From: Thermoplasmata archaeon
Lineage (GTDB): Archaea; Thermoplasmatota; Thermoplasmata; UBA10834
Length of the DNA: 37,513 bases
Reading direction: 5' to 3'
Assembly (NCBI GenBank): GCA_025457815.1
Contig: JALOTQ010000004.1
Location: forward strand, 1 to 37,513
The position numbers were made by a program, and so were the translations under genes. This document shows positions 2,319 through 36,618 of this stretch, piece after piece. The number at the start of each line of letters is the position of its first letter. The stretch's first letter is position 1. The notes under the pieces are model-generated. The model worked only from the letters and a program-made list of their open reading frames with translations, ran no database searches and had not been told where the DNA came from.

Positions 2319-4917
2319 GCGCCTTTCCTCCGACCTTCTTCTTGAGCTGGCTGAGAGTGAGATAAGCCTCCATGGGCGTCATCTTCGAGACGTCGAGAGC
2401 ACGCAGCTCGTCCTCCAGGGCGGACTCGTTCTGCGGCGTCAGCAGCAGCGACTGTCTCTGCACCTTCTTCCCTGCCTTGACCTCCAGGACGTTCTCCTCC
2501 TCGATCCTGCTGAGGACCTGCTCCGCCCTCCCGATCACATCGTCCGGGACGCCGGCCAGTCGCGCCACCTGTATGCCGTAGCTCTTGCTCGCCCTTCCCG
2601 GGACGACCTTCCTCAGGAAGATGACCTCGGAGCCCTGCTCCTTCACGGCCATCGCGTAGTTCTTCACGCCCTCGAGGGATTCAGCTAGCTCCGTCAACTG
2701 ATGGTAGTGCGTTGCGAAGAGAGACTTCGCCCCGACCTTCGAATGGTCATAGAGGTACTCGGAGACCGCCCACGCGATCGCGAGCCCGTCGAACGTGCTC
2801 GTGCCCCGGCCGACCTCGTCGAGGAGTATGAGGCTCCTCGCGGTCGCGCTGTTCAGGATGTTGGCGAGCTCCGTCATCTCGACCATGAATGTTGACTGGC
2901 CGCGGGACAGGTCGTCGAACGCGCCAACTCTGGTGAATATGCGGTCGACGAGCCCGATGCTCGCCTCGGAGGCCGGAACGTACGAGCCCGCCTGCGCCAT
3001 GATGACGATGTCCGCTATCTGCCTCAGATAGGTCGACTTCCCGGCCATGTTGGGCCCCGTGAGGATCACGAGCCTGTTCAGGTTGGTGTCCAGGAAGCTG
3101 TCGTTTGGCACGAAAGAACACTTCTGGGTCCTCTCGACCACAGGGTGTCTTCCGTCCTTGATGACTATCGTGTCGGTATCATTGATCTTAGGCCTGCAGT
3201 ACCGAGAGGACACTGCGACCGTGGCGAACGAGTTCAGGACATCGACGCTCGCCATCGCGCTCGCGATGGACCGAATATCCTCTCCTCGCTTAGCCACGGA
3301 CTCCCTCAGGCGCGCGAAGGCTTCGTGCTCAAGGGCGTTGGACCGCTCCTGGGCGTTCAGGATGGTCCTCTCACGCTCCTTCAGCTCTGGCGTGACGAAC
3401 CGCTCGCCGCCCGCTATTGTCTGTTTGCGTTCGTATTCGGGCGGGACGTTCTTCAGATTCGACTTGGACACCTCGATGTAGTATCCGAAGACGTTGTTGT
3501 AGCCGACCTTCAGGGTCCTGATGCCCGTCCTCTTCCTCTCGGCCTCTTCGAGGCCAGCAATCCATACCTGTCCCTCCCGTGAGGAACGCCTCAGCTCGTC
3601 GAGGTTGGCGTCGAAGCCGTCTCTGATCAGGCCGCCTTCCTTGATGTTGACCGGAGGATCATCGACGAGCGCCTTGCGGATCATGTCGGCGACGTCCCCG
3701 ACGTCGGCCATCCCATGTGCGAGATCCCTGAGCAGGTCCGACTTCGAGGATGAGACGGCCCTTCTGAGCTCAGGCACGACCTCGAGGCAGGTCCTGATTG
3801 CGAGCACATCTCTCGCGTTGGCGCTTCCGTAGATCGCCTTCGCGACGAGCCGTTCGAGGTCCCGGACCTCTTCGAGCGCGTCGGAGATGTCGCTCCTGAG
3901 AACCGTCTTGGAGACCAGCTCCTCGACCGCGTCCAGCCGCCTCTCGATGGCCTTGACCTCCCTGAGTGGCTCCCCGAGCCACTTCTTCAGGGTGCGCGCG
4001 CCCATGGGCGTGAGTGTCCGGTCAAGGACGGATACGAGGGTGTTGTCTCCGAGCCCGTCCCGCACGTTCCTGAAGACCTCGAGATTCCGAAGTGTCGTTT
4101 GGTCGAGGACGAGCTTGTCTGAGGTGGAGTAGAACCTGGGCCGCGACAGGAAGTCGAGGCTCCTCTTCTGAGTGGTCTCGAGATATCTGAGGATCGCTCC
4201 GGCGCTGGCTATCGCCAAGGGCCTCCCTTCAAGTCCGAGACCCTCGAGCGTCTGAACCTTGAAGTGCCTTCTGAGCAGAGGCTCAGCTGACTCCGTCAGA
4301 AACGCAATATCGTCAACCTTCGAGGTCGACGCGCCCGACCGCACGAACTCGGCAAGAAGAGCCTCGTCATCGAAGGACGGCTTGTGAAGGACCTCCTTGG
4401 GGGCGCGCTGCGCAAATTCGGAGAGGACCTTCGAGTCCGCGTCTTCGCCTTCGACCTCCGTCACGACGAACTCACCGGTCGATATGTCCGCGAAGGCCAC
4501 GCCGTACGATCCTCCCGATTTCGTGACGGACATCAGGTAGCTGTTCGAGGCGCCGTCGAGGACAGTGCTCTCGAGCACCGTGCCCGGGGTGACTATCCTG
4601 ACGACATCGCGGTCCACGAGCCCCTTCGCCCGTTTCGGGTCCTCGAGCTGCTCGCAGATGGCGACCTTGTAGCCCTTGCTCACGAGCTTCGGAAGGTAAG
4701 AATCAAGGGCGTGCCAAGGCACCCCGCAGAGCGGGATGCGCTCCTTCTTGCCCTTCTCCCTGGAGGTGAGCGTGATATCGAGCTCCCTGGACCCCGTGAC
4801 GGCATCCTCGCCGAACATCTCGTAGAAGTCGCCCATGCGATAGAGCAGGATGCAGTCCCTGTACTGCTCCTTGATCCTGAAGTACTGCTCCATCATCGGC
4901 GTGGTCGCTCTTGCCAC
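2296..4917 (-). CDS. mutS: DNA mismatch repair protein MutS
   Basis: MutS recognises mismatches and small loops. The N-terminal mismatch-binding domain has YRMGDFYEMF, containing the Phe-x-Glu wedge (FYE). The C-terminal ABC-type ATPase has the Walker A motif TGPNMAGKST, the DEVGRGTSTFDGLA Walker B/D-loop region and the ATHYHQL switch. The frame is open back to an ATG at 4998, but a TATA-like box (4951-4960) lies inside that extension. A GTG at 4917 has a GGGGAG Shine-Dalgarno 7 bases upstream, and the protein from there begins a few residues before the conserved TPMMEQY segment. I therefore choose GTG 4917, giving 873 residues, normal for MutS1. It is first in the mutS-mutL operon. The intact motifs indicate an active protein. 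Confidence 0.95.
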   Translation of the reverse strand: MARATTPMMEQYFRIKEQYRDCILLYRMGDFYEMFGEDAVTGSRELDITLTSREKGKKERIPLCGVPWHALDSYLPKLVSKGYKVAICEQLEDPKRAKGLVDRDVVRIVTPGTVLESTVLDGASNSYLMSVTKSGGSYGVAFADISTGEFVVTEVEGEDADSKVLSEFAQRAPKEVLHKPSFDDEALLAEFVRSGASTSKVDDIAFLTESAEPLLRRHFKVQTLEGLGLEGRPLAIASAGAILRYLETTQKRSLDFLSRPRFYSTSDKLVLDQTTLRNLEVFRNVRDGLGDNTLVSVLDRTLTPMGARTLKKWLGEPLREVKAIERRLDAVEELVSKTVLRSDISDALEEVRDLERLVAKAIYGSANARDVLAIRTCLEVVPELRRAVSSSKSDLLRDLAHGMADVGDVADMIRKALVDDPPVNIKEGGLIRDGFDANLDELRRSSREGQVWIAGLEEAERKRTGIRTLKVGYNNVFGYYIEVSKSNLKNVPPEYERKQTIAGGERFVTPELKERERTILNAQERSNALEHEAFARLRESVAKRGEDIRSIASAMASVDVLNSFATVAVSSRYCRPKINDTDTIVIKDGRHPVVERTQKCSFVPNDSFLDTNLNRLVILTGPNMAGKSTYLRQIADIVIMAQAGSYVPASEASIGLVDRIFTRVGAFDDLSRGQSTFMVEMTELANILNSATARSLILLDEVGRGTSTFDGLAIAWAVSEYLYDHSKVGAKSLFATHYHQLTELAESLEGVKNYAMAVKEQGSEVIFLRKVVPGRASKSYGIQVARLAGVPDDVIGRAEQVLSRIEEENVLEVKAGKKVQRQSLLLTPQNESALEDELRALDVSKMTPMEAYLTLSQLKKKVGGKALGKDKKA

Positions 4918-4950
4918 TGCCTTGCTCCCCCGAAGAAAAGATGGAAGCTT

Positions 4951-4960
4951 GATATTTCTA
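4951..4960 (-). promoter_or_regulatory. TATA-like box of mutS-mutL
   Basis: On the minus strand this reads tagaaatatc, AT-rich against a GC-rich background. Its centre is about 38 bases before the GTG at 4917, which predicts a transcript start near 4929 and a short leader carrying the GGGGAG ribosome binding site. Its position rules against the upstream ATG at 4998. This is an inference from spacing and composition. Confidence 0.5.
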
Positions 4961-5032
4961 GTTATGGTCAAGCGCCTGTATGTGCGCACTTGCATCAACC
5001 GTGGGAGTGCGCTCGAGGAGAACCGTGCGAGG

Positions 5033-14908: not shown

Positions 14909-15841
14909 CTAGAACGAGCGCATCTCCTTCTCGAGCATCTTCAGCTCGGACTCCGGGAGCGTCAGCGGGCTGATGGATGCGATGAGGACCGAGTCGGTCA
15001 CGGCGACCTTGTCGTTGACGTGCTGCAGAAGCTTCAGGACCTTCTGGAACCCGTTCTGGGAGACGAGGTACTCGAGCCCCGTGAGAAGCACGGTGCAGTT
15101 CTTGTTCTCCGAGATGAAGGTCTTCATGTCTGAATACAGCATCGCGATGTTCGATGGGTCCCTGGAGTAGTTCTTCTCCTGGTCCATGGAGAGCCACAGG
15201 AACGGAACGCCTTTCAGGTCGTACCTCTCCTTGACCTTCTCGGGATACTCCCTGGTGACGCACAGGCAGGGCACGCCGTGCTTGACCGCGTCCACGAATA
15301 TGTCGAACGCCTGGTCCGGGATCTCCTCCTTGATGAGGTACGAGTAGCCGTTCTGGAGCGTGTACTTCCTGACCGACTCCTCCTCCGCGTGCCTCACCGG
15401 CCTTAGGTTGTCGATCACCTCGTAGGCCTGCATGACGCATGCTGGATATCCTGTGCTGGTGCACTCGACCTCGTCGACCTCGTACCTCTTGCCCGTGAGC
15501 TGTGACACGATGCCCGAGAGATATCCCCTCGCGAAGTCGCACGTGTTGCCCTCTTTGGCCTCCACGGACTCCTCGAGGTTGACAATCATCTCGCTCTCCT
15601 GCATCGACTCGATCTTCATCCTGCTGAGCCCGGCCTCCATCCAGAGAGGCTCAATCATGCTCCTCGCCTCGGCGAGGCTCCCGCTCGACAGCCCGAAGCT
15701 CTCCACCAGGGCTCTCCCGCATCTCTGGCCGTACCGGTACACCATCAGCCTTGCGCGCATGTCGCCCTCGACGATCTCGAGCTCCTCCCTCAGATGCGCC
15801 AGGGCTATGCCAGGCATGACGAAGAACGGCAGGGAGCGCAT
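14909..15841 (-). CDS. V4R domain - DUF835 protein
   Basis: About 310 residues. The N-terminal half is a V4R-type small-molecule-binding domain with the spaced cysteines NTCDFARGYLSGI, VECTSTG and PACVM. The C-terminal half (about residues 160-310) resembles DUF835, an archaeal domain with a RecA/Rossmann-like look (SYLIKEE, DAVKHGVPCLCVTREYPEKV, CTVLLTGLEYLVSQNGF). The frame is open upstream to 15931, but an ATG at 15841 overlaps the GTPase stop as TGATG. This is the natural start and shows translational coupling. DUF835 proteins are thought to act in archaeal sensing or signalling; V4R domains are proposed to bind hydrophobic or aromatic ligands. It is probably the sensor or effector partner of the GTPase. 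It ends in TAG. Confidence 0.8.
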   Translation of the reverse strand: MRSLPFFVMPGIALAHLREELEIVEGDMRARLMVYRYGQRCGRALVESFGLSSGSLAEARSMIEPLWMEAGLSRMKIESMQESEMIVNLEESVEAKEGNTCDFARGYLSGIVSQLTGKRYEVDEVECTSTGYPACVMQAYEVIDNLRPVRHAEEESVRKYTLQNGYSYLIKEEIPDQAFDIFVDAVKHGVPCLCVTREYPEKVKERYDLKGVPFLWLSMDQEKNYSRDPSNIAMLYSDMKTFISENKNCTVLLTGLEYLVSQNGFQKVLKLLQHVNDKVAVTDSVLIASISPLTLPESELKMLEKEMRSF

Positions 15842-16350
15842 CAGTCCGCCCCCAGGACCAGCGTGCCTATCTCCTTGAAGGCGTTCTCCACGTTGAGACC
15901 GGTCTTCGCGCTGGTCTCGAGCATCCTGCACCCGACTCCGCTGGCGAACTGCTCCAGCTCGGTCGTCGAGAATGCCTTCTCCAGGTCGGACTTGTTGCCC
16001 AGGATGAGTACGGGCATGTCGCCCACCACGGACCTGAAGCTACCAAGCCATGACTTCAGGTTCCTCATGGTGTCGGGGCGCGTGAAGTCGCAGACGGCGA
16101 GGGCTCCCGCGGCTCCCCTGTAGTACGCCGCGTGTAGAGACTCGTGGGTTTTCTGGCCGAGTATGTCCCAGATCATGAAGTCGATCTCGGAGTCGCCTAT
16201 GTTGACCTTCTTCTTGGACACCTTCGTCCCGAAGGACATCAGGTACTTGTCATCGAACACGTCGAAGACATACCGCCTCACCAAGCTCGTCTTGCCGACC
16301 GCTCCGTCCCCCAGGAGGCAGAGCTTGATGATGTACTTCCCTGAGTGCAT
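15841..16350 (-). CDS. Ras/Rab-like small GTPase
   Basis: This 169-residue protein has every Ras-superfamily motif: G1 GDGAVGKTS (residues 14-22), a switch I Thr in FGTKV, G3 WDILGQ with the Gln retained, G4 NKSD and G5 ETSAKTG. WDILGQ is closer to Rab/Ran than to bacterial GTPases. There is no C-terminal cysteine for lipid attachment and no extra domain, so it is soluble unless held by a partner. It is the first gene of a three-gene operon; its TGA overlaps the ATG of the V4R-DUF835 gene. A strong TATA-like box lies about 33 bases upstream and the transcript is nearly leaderless. Small Ras-like GTPases occur in several archaeal groups, and their roles are largely unknown. The likely regulator class, roadblock/LC7, is encoded at 33772-34119. 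Confidence 0.92.
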   Translation of the reverse strand: MHSGKYIIKLCLLGDGAVGKTSLVRRYVFDVFDDKYLMSFGTKVSKKKVNIGDSEIDFMIWDILGQKTHESLHAAYYRGAAGALAVCDFTRPDTMRNLKSWLGSFRSVVGDMPVLILGNKSDLEKAFSTTELEQFASGVGCRMLETSAKTGLNVENAFKEIGTLVLGAD

Positions 16351-31447: not shown

Positions 31448-31894
31448 ATGGTGAAAATGCTGGTACCATACCCAGAGAACTGCACTGGCTGCAGGTTCTG
31501 CGAGATGGCTTGCTCCGTCTACCACGACGGGAAGGTCAACCACGCGGATGCCAGGCTGCAAGTTCACAGAAGGAATGTGAAAGTCGACTTCCCGTCCGTG
31601 TGCACGCACTGCGTATCGTGCGGCGAGGACTGCTGCGTTCTGCACTGTCCCGTCGAGGCGATCAAGAAGGAGAACGGCATCGTGCACGTGAACCAGGACG
31701 AGTGCACCGCGTGCGGCACATGCGTGGAGGTGTGCCCGTTCGGGGTCATGCGGATGGAGGAGAAGGCGTTCAACTGCGACCTATGCGGTGGGGACCCGAC
31801 CTGCGTCAAGTTCTGCCCGATGAAGGCCATAGTCTATGAGGAGCCCAAGCCGGAGCAGTATGAGAAGGTCAAGAAGCTCCTGAAGGAGGTCTGA
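31448..31894 (+). CDS. Four-cluster [4Fe-4S] ferredoxin-like electron transfer protein
   Basis: This 148-residue protein belongs to the HycB/DmsB-like polyferredoxin family. Cysteine groups appear in order as CTGCRFCEMAC, CTHCVSCGEDCCVLHCP, CTACGTCVEVCP and CDLCGGDPTCVKFCP, enough for four [4Fe-4S] clusters. It lies directly before an aldehyde ferredoxin oxidoreductase gene, with a 2-base gap, and its 3' end carries the GGAGGT ribosome binding site of that gene. It is thus the probable electron acceptor or relay of that enzyme. Confidence 0.92.
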   Translation: MVKMLVPYPENCTGCRFCEMACSVYHDGKVNHADARLQVHRRNVKVDFPSVCTHCVSCGEDCCVLHCPVEAIKKENGIVHVNQDECTACGTCVEVCPFGVMRMEEKAFNCDLCGGDPTCVKFCPMKAIVYEEPKPEQYEKVKKLLKEV

Positions 31895-31896
31895 AT

Positions 31897-33726
31897 ATGA
31901 AGGGTTACACTGGCAAGATACTCAAGGTGGACCTCACGGAGGAGAAGTCCCATGAGAGGACCTTCGACGAGAGCTACGCCAGGAAGTACCTGGGAGGCCA
32001 GGGTTTCGCTGTCGAGCTGGTCTATCACGGGGTCCCTAAGGGCTCGGATCCGCTCGGGCCGAAGAACGTGCTCGCGATGGCCGGAGGCACTTTCGACGGG
32101 TTCCCGGTCGGCACCGGAGGCAAGGTCGCTTTCGCCGCGAAGTCGCCTGCGACAGGGACCCTCGCGGAGAGCATCATGGGAGGCTCGATCGGGCCTGAAC
32201 TCAGGCACGCAGGCTACGATGCGCTAGAGATAGTCGGCAAGGCCGAGAGCCCATCCTACATCTGGATCGACAACGGGACTGTAGAGGTCAAGGACGCCTC
32301 TGACCTATGGGGCAAGGACACGCGCGAGGTCCCGGAGATACTGAAGAAGCGCCACGGCTGGGACGTCAAGGTGGCGTGCATAGGAGTCGCCGGGGAGAAG
32401 CTGTCCCGGCTGGCATCGATAGACTGCGACGACAGGCAGGCCGGAAGGGCGGGGCTCGGCGCGGTCATGGGTTCGAAGAACCTGAAGGCGATCGTGATCA
32501 GGGGAACGAAGGACCTGGTGCCCGCGGACCCGAAGAAGCTCCTCGACCTGGCGCTCCACTACCAGAAGATCTACGAGGCCGCGCCGTCGTTCGTGGAGGA
32601 CACGAAGTACGGCACGGGCGAGTTCCTCGGCTGGGTCAACAAGGACAGGGGCGTGTTCCCGACCAGGAACTGGCAGGAAGGAGTCTTCAACGAGCGTGAG
32701 AAGATCGACCCCTACTATTGGGCCACGAGGTATGTCACCAAGAACAAGGCCTGCTTCGCGTGCACGAAGCCCTGCGGGAAGCTGTTCGAGGTCAAGTCAG
32801 GGAAGTTCGCGGGAGTCGCCATTGATGGGATCGAGTACGAGACCCTCTACTCCCTTGGCGGCGCGTGCGGCAACTCCGACGTGGAGTCTGTCGCGAAGGC
32901 GAACGAGCTGTGCGACCTCCTCGGCCTGGACACGATCTCCGCCGGCGTGACCGTCGGGTTCGCCATGGAGCTGTTCCAGAGGGGCATAATAACTGAGAGC
33001 GAGACGGGAGTGAACCTCGCCTGGAGCAACGCCTCTGACGCCGTCCCGAAGATGATCGAGATGATGGGGAACAGGAAGGGGTTCGGCGACGTGCTCGCGG
33101 ACGGCGTGAAGGTGGCCGCTGGGAAGATCGGCAAAGGTTCAGAGAGGTATGCGATCCACACCAAGGGCATGGAACCACCAGCGTACGATGTCAGGGGAAT
33201 GAAGGGCCATGGGCTGGCGTACATGACCTCCACGAGAGGAGCGTGCCACCTGAGGGCCGGGTTCTACGCCCCCGAGCTGGTCGGCAAGTTCTGGAAGTGG
33301 GAGGGCATAGACAGGTTCTCGGCCGTGGGCAAGGGCTTCATGGTCTCCCAGACGGAGAACTTCATGTGTGTCTACGACTCGGTCGGCCTGTGCAAGTTTT
33401 CGCGAGGGTTCTATCTCATCGCGAAGCTCCCTGAGGTCATCGAGGCGATAACCGGATTGAAGTTCAGCGAGGATGAGCTCCTCAAGATAGGCGAGAGGAT
33501 ACACAACATGAAAGGGAACTTCAACGCCAGGGAGGGCGTCCTGAGGAAGGACTGGCTGCTTCCCGCGCGCATACTCGAGGACCCAATACCCGAGGGCGTC
33601 TCCAAGGGCTCCAAGATATCCGTCGATGAGATGAACCTCATGCTCGACGACTACATGAAGGCCCGCGGGTGGACGAGCGACGGTGTGCCCACGCCTGAGA
33701 AGCTCAAGGAACTCGGAATAGAGTGA
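31897..33726 (+). CDS. Tungsten-containing aldehyde ferredoxin oxidoreductase family
   Basis: This 609-residue protein begins with the AOR hallmarks MKGYTGKILKVDLTEEK and YLGGQGF. The [4Fe-4S] ligands are Cys286, 289, 293 and distant Cys499 (in DSVGLCKF). The pterin-binding segments GRAGLGAVMGSKNLKAI and AYDVRGMKGHGLAYMTS are intact. The enzyme oxidises aldehydes, or the reverse, with a tungsten-bispterin centre. In peptide fermenters it often clears aldehydes derived from 2-oxo acids. It forms a two-gene operon with the preceding ferredoxin. The exact substrate subclass (AOR, FOR, GOR, WOR-like) cannot be fixed from sequence reading alone. Confidence 0.94.
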   Translation: MKGYTGKILKVDLTEEKSHERTFDESYARKYLGGQGFAVELVYHGVPKGSDPLGPKNVLAMAGGTFDGFPVGTGGKVAFAAKSPATGTLAESIMGGSIGPELRHAGYDALEIVGKAESPSYIWIDNGTVEVKDASDLWGKDTREVPEILKKRHGWDVKVACIGVAGEKLSRLASIDCDDRQAGRAGLGAVMGSKNLKAIVIRGTKDLVPADPKKLLDLALHYQKIYEAAPSFVEDTKYGTGEFLGWVNKDRGVFPTRNWQEGVFNEREKIDPYYWATRYVTKNKACFACTKPCGKLFEVKSGKFAGVAIDGIEYETLYSLGGACGNSDVESVAKANELCDLLGLDTISAGVTVGFAMELFQRGIITESETGVNLAWSNASDAVPKMIEMMGNRKGFGDVLADGVKVAAGKIGKGSERYAIHTKGMEPPAYDVRGMKGHGLAYMTSTRGACHLRAGFYAPELVGKFWKWEGIDRFSAVGKGFMVSQTENFMCVYDSVGLCKFSRGFYLIAKLPEVIEAITGLKFSEDELLKIGERIHNMKGNFNAREGVLRKDWLLPARILEDPIPEGVSKGSKISVDEMNLMLDDYMKARGWTSDGVPTPEKLKELGIE

Positions 33727-33771: not shown

Positions 33772-34119
33772 TCATATCATCTTGATGGTCTCAGCGAGCT
33801 CGCTGACCTTCTTGAGCGCCATGCCGGTGTCGGCCTTCTTGGGGATGACCGTGACTATGAGGGCCTTTCTTCCCGCGCCCACGACTATCATCCTCGCGTC
33901 CTCGCTCTCGACGGTGACGTGCAGCGGGGAGCCCACGCGAAGCTCCGAGTTGGCGGTCGACGCCGCGCCCAGCAGCGTGGCGCACATGATCGAGAAGGTC
34001 TCCATCGACACGCCCTCTGGGACGTCTCCGGCTATGACCAGGCCGTCCCTGCTGATGACCGCCGACGCGACGGCGCCACAGCTTTGTCTGAGTGCTCGCA
34101 GTGCGGGCTTCAGCTCCAT
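33772..34119 (-). CDS. Roadblock/LC7 domain protein
   Basis: This 115-residue single-domain protein has the roadblock/LC7 pattern: an N-terminal helix (LKPALRALRQSCG), strands AVISRDGLVIAGDVPEG and a helix TFSIMCATLLGAAS. Then come strands HVTVESEDARMIVVGAGRKA, ALIVTVIPKK and a final helix (ALKKVSELAETIKMI). Such proteins dimerise and regulate small Ras-like GTPases, as MglB does for MglA in bacteria. It is the second gene of a pair: its ATG lies 4 bases after the stop of a V4R-domain gene, with GGAGGA in that gene's end. The only Ras-like GTPase seen is at 15841-16350, also next to a V4R protein. Confidence 0.85.
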   Translation of the reverse strand: MELKPALRALRQSCGAVASAVISRDGLVIAGDVPEGVSMETFSIMCATLLGAASTANSELRVGSPLHVTVESEDARMIVVGAGRKALIVTVIPKKADTGMALKKVSELAETIKMI

Positions 34120-34123
34120 CCTG

Positions 34124-34537
34124 TTACTCTCCTCCGCTGATTGGTTCTACCTTGAATACGCAGTGCTTGTCTCCCTTGCTGACGCACTCGATCTCCTCGC
34201 AGTGCAGGCGTCTGTGTGCCTGCGCCTCGTAAATCTTCCTGACGATGCCCCTCAGCCTGTGGCAGGTCGCACCGTCGGCCTGACCGGACTCGATTGACCC
34301 CTCCGCAACCGCCGTGGACTCCTCGAAGACTATGTTATCCACCCACCCGCGCGCGCGAAGCAGGTTGGCGCAGATCTCGAAGTACTTCTCGGGCTCCTGA
34401 GACGCTATCTTCGCCATCTCCTCTCCGAGTATCATGCCCTCCCGGAAGAAGAGGCCGTAGCAGGCCTGAGACATGACGCCCTCGTAGAGCTTCCTTATCT
34501 CCTCGAACTCCGCCTGGGAGAGCTTGACGAATTTCAT
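34124..34537 (-). CDS. V4R-domain (hydrocarbon-binding-like) protein
   Basis: This 137-residue protein has a helical N-terminal part (AEFEEIRKLYEGVMSQACYG) and a V4R-like C-terminal half with the cysteines GATCHRLRGIV, EEIECVSKGDKHC and VFKVEP. The same three-Cys layout occurs in the V4R domain of the V4R-DUF835 protein at 14909-15841. V4R domains are proposed to bind small hydrophobic molecules and possibly metal. It is first in an operon with the roadblock protein and has a TATA-like box about 33 bases before its ATG. A sensor role feeding the roadblock partner is an inference. Confidence 0.78.
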   Translation of the reverse strand: MKFVKLSQAEFEEIRKLYEGVMSQACYGLFFREGMILGEEMAKIASQEPEKYFEICANLLRARGWVDNIVFEESTAVAEGSIESGQADGATCHRLRGIVRKIYEAQAHRRLHCEEIECVSKGDKHCVFKVEPISGGE

Positions 34538-34565: not shown

Positions 34566-34575
34566 GTATTTAATG
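34566..34575 (-). promoter_or_regulatory. TATA-like box of the V4R-roadblock pair
   Basis: On the minus strand it reads cattaaatac, centred 33 bases before the ATG at 34537, predicting a nearly leaderless transcript. Confidence 0.55.
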
Positions 34576-34714: not shown

Positions 34715-34724
34715 AGCTTTTATG
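34715..34724 (+). promoter_or_regulatory. TATA-like box of the AMMECR1-pyrC operon
   Basis: The sequence agcttttatg is centred 33 bases before ATG 34752. It overlaps an earlier in-frame ATG at 34722, which therefore cannot be the start. Confidence 0.55.
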
Positions 34725-34751
34725 GACGGGATTCGTTCTGCACCCGATAGG

Positions 34752-35378
34752 ATGTACTCTGACGAGGAGGGCAAGCTTGCCGTGCGAATCGCGAGAGGGA
34801 TCGTCGAGAGTCACGTAAGGAAGACCAAGTTCGCTCTGCCTGACCTCCCCAAGATATTCAAGGAGAAGTCGGGAGTCTTCGTCACGCTAACCACATACCC
34901 CGGGGACGACCTCAGGGGCTGCATCGGATACCCCGAACCCATGATGGCCCTCATCGACGCGCTGAAGGACGCTGCGGCAAGTGCCGCGTCGAGGGACCCG
35001 AGGTTCCCGGCGGTCCGGCCCGAGGAGCTCGACAAGGTCAAGGTCGAGGTCAGCCTGCTGACGCCGCCTGAGGAGATCAAGGTCAACAAGCCCAAGGAGT
35101 ATGTCGGACATGTCAGGATAGGCGAGGATGGCCTGATCATGCAGAGAGGCTTTTCGAGGGGGCTGCTGCTCCCTCAGGTACCCGTTGAGTGGAGCTGGGA
35201 CGCAGAGGAGTTCCTGTGCCAGTGCTGCATGAAGGCCGGCCTGACGCCTGACGCATGGCTTCAGCAGGGCACCAAGGTCTTCAAGTTCCAGGCGGAGGTC
35301 TTCTCCGAGGACAAGCCAAACGGGGAGGTCAGGCGCAGGTCGCTGAGTGAAGAACATGGAGCTTGTGGTGGACGGTAA
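34752..35378 (+). CDS. AMMECR1-domain protein
   Basis: About 208 residues covering the whole AMMECR1 domain. VTLTTYPGDDLRGCIGYPEP carries the invariant LRGCIG motif. Then follow ALKDAAASAASRDPRFPAV, the VEVSLLTPPEEI segment and GLIMQRGFSRGLLLPQVPVE. The family is conserved in archaea and eukaryotes; its biochemical role is unsettled, though it often sits with MEMO and radical SAM genes. ATG 34752 is preferred because a TATA-like box overlaps the earlier ATG at 34722. Its 3' end overlaps the start of the dihydroorotase gene, so they form an operon. Confidence 0.92.
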   Translation: MYSDEEGKLAVRIARGIVESHVRKTKFALPDLPKIFKEKSGVFVTLTTYPGDDLRGCIGYPEPMMALIDALKDAAASAASRDPRFPAVRPEELDKVKVEVSLLTPPEEIKVNKPKEYVGHVRIGEDGLIMQRGFSRGLLLPQVPVEWSWDAEEFLCQCCMKAGLTPDAWLQQGTKVFKFQAEVFSEDKPNGEVRRRSLSEEHGACGGR

Positions 35379-36618
35379 CTGCTTCGTAGCCGGCAGGATG
35401 CAGAAGTGCTGCGTGGGCATCGAAGGCGGCAAGATCGTCAAGATAGCCAAGGTGCTTGAGGGTGAGAAGGTCCTCAACTTCGGCAACAAGCTCGTGCTGC
35501 CAGCGGCCATCGACGGGCACGTCCATTTCAGGGAGCCAGGCATGACGGACAAGGAGGATTTCGCGTCGGGCTCAGAGGCGGCACTGTGCGGCGGCGTCAC
35601 CTGCGTGCTCGAAATGCCCAACACGAGACCGTCGACGACGACGGTCGCCTCCATCAGGGAGAAGAAGAAGGCTGCTTCGGCAAAGAGCCTGGTCGACTTC
35701 GGGCTGTTCGCGGGCGTGAAGCCAGGCATGGATGTGGAGGCCCTGGCGAAGGAGGCTGCCGCGTTCAAACTATACATGGGCAGCACCACGGGAGACCTTC
35801 TAGTCCCTGATATCCTGGAGGTCAAGAAGGAACTGGCCCGGATAGCTAGGACTGGGAAGGTGCTCGCGGTCCACGCGGAGGACGAGAACCTGCGCAGGAA
35901 GGACCCTGAGAACGACCTCGAAGGACACCTCAGGAATAGGCCGAACGAATGCGAGACGACTGCGATCAAGACCATCAGGAACGCCTACCGAGGGGATCGG
36001 CTGCACATCTGCCACGTCTCCGCAAGACAGTCACTCTTCGAGGTGAAAGGGCGGACTGGATTGACCTGCGAGGTCACGCCCCATCATCTGCTGTTCGACA
36101 CGACCAGTCGCCTTGGGGCGCTAATCAAAGTCAACCCGCCAATCAGGAGGAGGGAGGACCGACAAGCCCTGTTCCAGGCCCTCAAGGGCGGCTCCATCGA
36201 CATGGTCGCGTCGGACCACGCGCCTCACCTGCTTGAGGAGAAGGAAGATGACTTCGAGTACGCGCTCACGGGCACGCCGGGCGTCGAAACGCTGGTCCCG
36301 CTGATGCTGCAACTGGTGAGGGAGAACCACCTGGCGATTGACTTGGTGATTAGGATGCTTTGCGAGCGACCCGGGGAGATCTATGGATTGCCAAAGGGCA
36401 GGATAGCGGCGGGATACGATGCCGACCTGATTGTCGTCGACATGCTCGCGGGAGAGTACATCAAGGCCGACAAGCTGCACTCCAAGTGCGGATGGACGGC
36501 CTACGAGGACATGCCTGCAATCTTCCCCAAAGCGGTCTTCTTGAGGGGAGAGCTGATGGTCGAGAACCGCAGCCGTGTCGGCGAACGGAAAGGAAGGGAC
36601 ATCGTTGGCTCGACCTGA
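35356..36618 (+). CDS. pyrC: Dihydroorotase
   Basis: About 420 residues. The binuclear metal-site residues of a type I dihydroorotase are visible: DGHVHFREPG (His-x-His), a Lys in AFKLYMGSTTGD that would be carboxylated, the His in AVHAEDE, the His in ICHVSARQ and the Asp in SDHAPH. EMPNTRPSTT and VTPHHLLFD are further family segments. It cyclises carbamoyl aspartate in pyrimidine synthesis. GTG 35347 is an alternative start, but MELVVDG at ATG 35356 fits the family start and has GAGTGA 5 bases upstream. The start overlaps AMMECR1 by 23 bases. The next gene begins inside its 3' end. Confidence 0.94.
   Translation: MELVVDGNCFVAGRMQKCCVGIEGGKIVKIAKVLEGEKVLNFGNKLVLPAAIDGHVHFREPGMTDKEDFASGSEAALCGGVTCVLEMPNTRPSTTTVASIREKKKAASAKSLVDFGLFAGVKPGMDVEALAKEAAAFKLYMGSTTGDLLVPDILEVKKELARIARTGKVLAVHAEDENLRRKDPENDLEGHLRNRPNECETTAIKTIRNAYRGDRLHICHVSARQSLFEVKGRTGLTCEVTPHHLLFDTTSRLGALIKVNPPIRRREDRQALFQALKGGSIDMVASDHAPHLLEEKEDDFEYALTGTPGVETLVPLMLQLVRENHLAIDLVIRMLCERPGEIYGLPKGRIAAGYDADLIVVDMLAGEYIKADKLHSKCGWTAYEDMPAIFPKAVFLRGELMVENRSRVGERKGRDIVGST

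Follow-up and report, generated by a model that had tools for sequence, protein, structure and literature searches.

What does a roadblock gene do when it is paired with a V4R gene, and is such a pair one half of a GTPase circuit? The question is raised by two adjacent genes at positions 33772-34537 of the window, by which we mean the whole stretch of 37,513 nucleotides of Thermoplasmata archaeon DNA analyzed here. In other systems, such as MglB and Ragulator, roadblock proteins have small GTPases as their targets (PMC9481161, PMC10933270), and an earlier note on this DNA had proposed that the pair may be the missing regulator of a Ras-like GTPase encoded at 15841-16350. The host genome (1.64 Mb in 154 contigs, 88% complete) contains two roadblock genes and three V4R proteins that pass the cut-off, as well as five close Ras-like GTPases.

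Both genes of the pair are encoded on the minus strand. The first (34124-34537) encodes a V4R protein of 137 amino acids, V4R-A, which matches the Pfam V4R profile (4.2e-10, 40 bits, cut-off 31), and the second (33772-34119) encodes a roadblock/LC7 protein of 115 amino acids, Robl-A, which matches Robl_LC7 (6.6e-10, 39 bits, cut-off 23). A gap of four bases (34120-34123) separates them, and the open reading frames, coordinates and domain matches bear out the two-gene layout described in the earlier note. A GGAGG motif at 34131-34135 on the same strand, within the 3' end of the V4R gene, is the likely Shine-Dalgarno sequence of the roadblock gene, a reading based on the sequence and on the short gaps in relatives. 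The minus-strand stretch ATTAAATA at 34567-34574, some 30 bases before the V4R gene begins, may be a TATA-like box. The arrangement is best read as a two-gene operon.

We then examined how widely this arrangement is conserved, mostly in metagenome-assembled, incomplete genomes. Within the order (21 genomes), this V4R gene was found in 18, and the roadblock gene lay directly downstream in all 18, against a chance adjacency of about 0.1% per genome at roughly two roadblock genes per 1.8 Mb. The three remaining genomes, which are 55-85% complete, lacked both genes. Across 400 genomes of the class, 189 matched the V4R profile and 220 the roadblock profile. Among the 149 V4R places in the matches listed, with the window's own genome left out, 132 had a listed roadblock within 650 bases, and some further places showed a roadblock when the loci were inspected. 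The pair was present in 38 of 41 loci from 20 families, with the V4R gene first every time. The intergenic gap in these relatives, measured from mechanically chosen start codons, ranged from -8 to 39 bases around a median of 4 and was at most 30 bases in 35 of 37 cases. No fusion of the two genes was seen among the loci examined.

The pair also extends beyond the class, since G403, G412 and G420, which belong to other classes of the same phylum, have it too. It was kept in Candidatus Saliniplasma halalkaliphilum (V4R identity 42%) and in Thermoplasmata archaeon B1Sed10_20 (33%). An exception was found in family f16, where two large single-contig genomes (G034 and G044) keep the V4R gene with no adjoining roadblock (L270 4580-4984, and L271). 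The conserved adjacency, order and short gap across the class and beyond are strong evidence that the V4R and roadblock genes form a real, tightly conserved functional unit. We found no description of this pair in the open-access literature that our search covered, and within it the module appears to be undescribed.

A conserved GTPase gene close to the pair was looked for among its neighbors and was not found; the conserved neighbors are other genes, as far as can be told around GC-rich loci, where genes were called mechanically. In 14 loci from eight families, and also in f14, the gene immediately upstream has the same orientation and encodes a protein with two CBS domains that ends in a Cys-containing segment. 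AMMECR1 and dihydroorotase genes were divergent upstream neighbors in ten families, including in the window (34722-36618), and genes for an aldehyde ferredoxin oxidoreductase and a ferredoxin-like protein lay convergently downstream in eight loci from four families (31448-33726 in the window). In family f10, most sampled loci carried a conserved upstream gene for a coiled-coil protein, which matched Pfam DUF7121 in the one case tested. No GTPase gene adjoins the pair in the window, and a GTPase gene occurred within about 10 kb of the pair in 2 of the 41 loci. The second roadblock gene of the host genome (contig C19; L017 4251-4658) was rejected as a V4R partner: it is solitary and lies between pelota-like and PHP-type genes. 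A second roadblock is present in most genomes of the order as well.

To characterize the V4R protein, we compared its AF2 model (pLDDT 88.1) with known structures. The fold search returned the phenol-sensing domains of MopR, PoxR and DmpR at a TM-score of about 0.7, MJ1460 of Methanocaldococcus at about 0.57 and TRAPPC3/Bet3 at about 0.5. The rmsd values of these comparisons were high, and a different placement of the long first helix may be the cause. V4R-A carries the pattern C-x25-C-x7-C, and a Glu precedes its second Cys by three residues (C92, E115, C118 and C126). These four residues were invariant in all 41 V4R sequences and aligned with those of MopR. In DmpR, zinc is bound by Cys151, a Glu, Cys177 and Cys185 (PMC7264223), with the same cysteine spacings of 26 and 8. 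The Pfam match, the predicted fold and the putative zinc site all agree with assignment of V4R-A to the V4R domain. The predicted fold is common to MopR/PoxR/DmpR and MJ1460, and the Cys-Glu-Cys-Cys site to MopR and DmpR. V4R-A differs in being free-standing, with no ATPase or DNA-binding domain, and in having a roadblock protein as its partner; a His found 28 residues before a conserved Trp in DmpR is absent from it, as read from the sequence.

V4R proteins of these archaea also occur with other partners. In the same genome, contig C66 (L022, G000:C66:11000-20000, 3273-5001) carries a second conserved V4R operon, consisting of V4R, a KaiC-like ATPase and DUF835. Its V4R protein is a paralog with about 41% identity to V4R-A that falls on a separate branch and has a P-loop NTPase, a RecA-like ATPase, where V4R-A has a roadblock. 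V4R-KaiC arrangements were also found in G031, G104, G416 and G425, mostly on a separate V4R branch. In the V4R tree, roadblock-linked and KaiC-linked proteins were mostly apart, with 3 changes of the KaiC label compared with 10.4 in shuffles. G416, from another class, has a cluster (L255 2795-5763) of V4R, KaiC, a fusion of a KaiC-like domain with an Arf/Ras-type GTPase, and a roadblock; its V4R had no Pfam match and sat on a long branch. In the window, a V4R-DUF835 gene (14909-15841, minus strand; Pfam DUF835 1.2e-30, V4R 5.2e-12) adjoins the GTPase gene. With the V4R-KaiC operons and the G416 cluster also in view, V4R proteins in these archaea appear to be sensors attached to NTPase modules of several kinds.

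The AF2 model of the roadblock protein (pLDDT 93.9) consists of a helix, two strands, a helix, three strands and a final helix. The closest structures to this model were MK-D1 Roadblock3, MglB and a Thorarchaeal roadblock (RB), with TM-scores to the query of 0.82-0.92, and the best PDB matches by sequence were the same Asgard roadblock proteins. The Pfam match and the model therefore point to a full roadblock fold of the MglB/Asgard type, including the C-terminal helix. MglB regulates the GTPase MglA in Thermus and Myxococcus; unlike MglB, Robl-A is partnered with a V4R gene, not a GTPase gene, and is kept even in genomes that yielded no small GTPase when searched.

We next considered whether the pair belongs to the GTPase at 15841-16350 on the minus strand (GTPase-A; Pfam Ras 5.6e-37). 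The earlier note had correctly described this GTPase as paired with a V4R protein, the V4R-DUF835 protein noted above, and had taken the three-cysteine layout common to both V4R domains as a sign that the two loci may be linked. The layout is truly shared, but it is the ordinary V4R zinc site, also present in MopR and DmpR. Because this site marks the V4R family as a whole, it says nothing about a shared circuit, and we rejected it as evidence of a link. The nearness of the two loci was also rejected as evidence. About 17 genes lie between GTPase-A and the pair, and nearly all of them are kept in order and orientation in seven relatives within the order, so the distance of 12-19 kb is explained by block synteny without recourse to function. 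No linkage of the two loci beyond ordinary synteny was found.

The note had counted it against its own idea if other Ras-like GTPases stood beside their own roadblock genes. Four other solo Ras-like GTPases do exist in the genome, but none adjoins a roadblock. It had also suggested looking for genomes in which the two loci are joined. In G037, a CBS-V4R-roadblock operon lies about 1 kb from two Ras GTPase genes with a DUF835 gene between them (L179 611-5533), and G416 also has a GTPase near V4R and roadblock genes.

A further expectation was that the phyletic patterns of the two loci would correlate. This holds in only part of the class, and to that extent the patterns count against the idea on the note's own terms. 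Among the 400 genomes, 111 had both the V4R group (matches below 1e-30) and the GTPase (GTPase-A-type matches, E<=1e-15), 63 had the V4R group only and 48 the GTPase only; three genomes of the order that show only the KaiC-linked V4R are counted here among those with the V4R group. Outside f10, 105 genomes had both and 2 had the V4R group only, as raw genome counts uncorrected for relatedness, whereas 61 V4R-only genomes belong to f10. As an example of the converse, G083, which is 99% complete, has a strong GTPase-A homolog (3.9e-59), with no V4R or roadblock among the matches listed.

Family f10 was examined more closely. Of its 67 genomes with the V4R gene of the pair, 61 had no GTPase-A match at E<=1e-15; the other six did have a GTPase-A-type match, indicating that the search works in this family. 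Twelve of the f10 genomes (90-100% complete) were searched further with the PF00071 and PF01926 profiles, and no small GTPase was found; the remaining 49 V4R-only genomes were searched with the GTPase-A sequence only. In the twelve, PF00071 gave no match over the cut-off, and PF01926 matches over the cut-off fell in frames of at least 300 amino acids. Their size is as expected of large GTPases, for example Drg, YchF, FeoB or translation factors, and it is from this size that the names are assigned. One frame of 262 amino acids matched PF01926 below the cut-off, over only 26 profile positions. The roadblock protein is nevertheless well preserved in this family: the 13 positions conserved at 90% or more outside f10 were all identical in a sample of eight f10 loci, of which six belong to genomes with no GTPase match. 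Since the pair is kept under constraint in f10 without the GTPase, and GTPase-A-like genes occur without the pair, its retained function is, judging from these sequence comparisons, independent of the GTPase-A type. With no small GTPase found in the f10 genomes searched, any client there would have to be something else. The strong constraint on a roadblock protein in such genomes challenges the usual assumption that a roadblock is a regulator of GTPases.

These observations bear on several explanations. One is that a single circuit is split between the two loci, with the pair as the dedicated sensor and regulator (GEF or GAP) of GTPase-A. This would agree with the MglB-like fold of the roadblock, with the location of both loci on one contig and strand in genomes of the order, with the co-occurrence outside f10 and with the GTPases near V4R and roadblock genes in G037 and G416. 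However, the 61 f10 genomes that keep the pair without a GTPase-A match (12 of them checked further), the 48 genomes that have the GTPase type without this V4R, the block synteny behind the proximity and the four other GTPases that are equally available leave the proposal of the earlier note unsupported, and we regard it as very improbable. A broader version, in which the pair is a general regulatory complex for the solo Ras-like GTPase or GTPases of each genome and its role changed or decayed in f10, is unlikely too but carries more weight. It fits the known action of roadblocks on small GTPases and the 105 genomes with both against 2 with V4R only outside f10, but those counts are uncorrected for relatedness, and the identity of all 13 roadblock positions in the f10 sample gives no sign of relaxed constraint.

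The two genes might instead be housekeeping neighbors that are merely co-expressed and act separately. Both are small and ordinary, f16 has the V4R gene without an adjoining roadblock, and AMMECR1 and dihydroorotase also stay close without an obvious functional relation. Against this, the adjacency, order and tiny gap of the pair persist over 20 families while other neighbors change, and the KaiC-linked V4R proteins mostly form a distinct branch, making independent action quite improbable in our view. The explanation we favor, giving it about an even chance of being correct, is that the V4R protein is the sensor and the roadblock protein the scaffold of a complex that adjusts an NTPase partner on binding of a ligand, with small GTPases as optional clients. 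It builds on the gene pair, its conservation, the predicted folds, the zinc-site residues and the dissociation from the GTPase-A type, which the analysis shows, and from these we infer the complex, the ligand, the client and the direction of the effect. Two points weigh against a complex: conserved adjacency can mean co-expression without binding, and in f16 the V4R gene has no adjoining roadblock.

In such a sensor-scaffold complex, the V4R protein would sense a small molecule, probably a hydrophobic ligand, and hold a structural zinc; in build it follows the phenol-sensing domains of MopR, PoxR and DmpR and, more distantly, Bet3/TRAPPC3. The roadblock protein would provide an MglB-like dimer platform. 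The two proteins would be translated together and most likely bind each other, and the ligand state may alter what the platform does to a nucleotide-hydrolyzing partner. Where the upstream CBS protein is present, the adenylate state might also feed in. In lineages with Ras-like GTPases, these may be the clients, GTPase-A being a possible client at most; in f10 the client would be a different one.

Finally, we compared the pair with the eukaryotic TRAPP core. Bet3 and V4R are homologs (PMC2253512), and the structures of longin and roadblock are related (PMC9481161). Asgard archaea have the folds of TRAPP and Ragulator separately, and the genes for small GTPases in the Asgard genome studied as a rule do not share an operon with those for such regulators (PMC10933270). 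Partners are therefore hard to assign there, which makes the stable V4R-roadblock pair described here useful. Its presence across about 20 non-Asgard families offers a direct and inexpensive way of testing whether heteromers of this kind are older than eukaryotes. One might suppose that the pair is a prokaryotic TRAPP-core-like complex, ancient in the phylum, which arose outside Asgard archaea and, in one large family or more, works on partners that are not small GTPases, although we consider this doubtful. In its set of predicted folds, the pair does resemble the TRAPP core of Bet3/TRAPPC3 and longin subunits and the Thorarchaeal TRAPPC3, but this likeness is compositional. V4R-A is nearer to bacterial sensors (TM-score of about 0.7) than to TRAPPC3 (about 0.5), and the fold encoded by its conserved partner gene is that of a roadblock and not of a longin. 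For these two reasons we do not claim membership in TRAPP for the pair, which combines a V4R protein closer to bacterial phenol sensors with a roadblock of the MglB/Asgard type.
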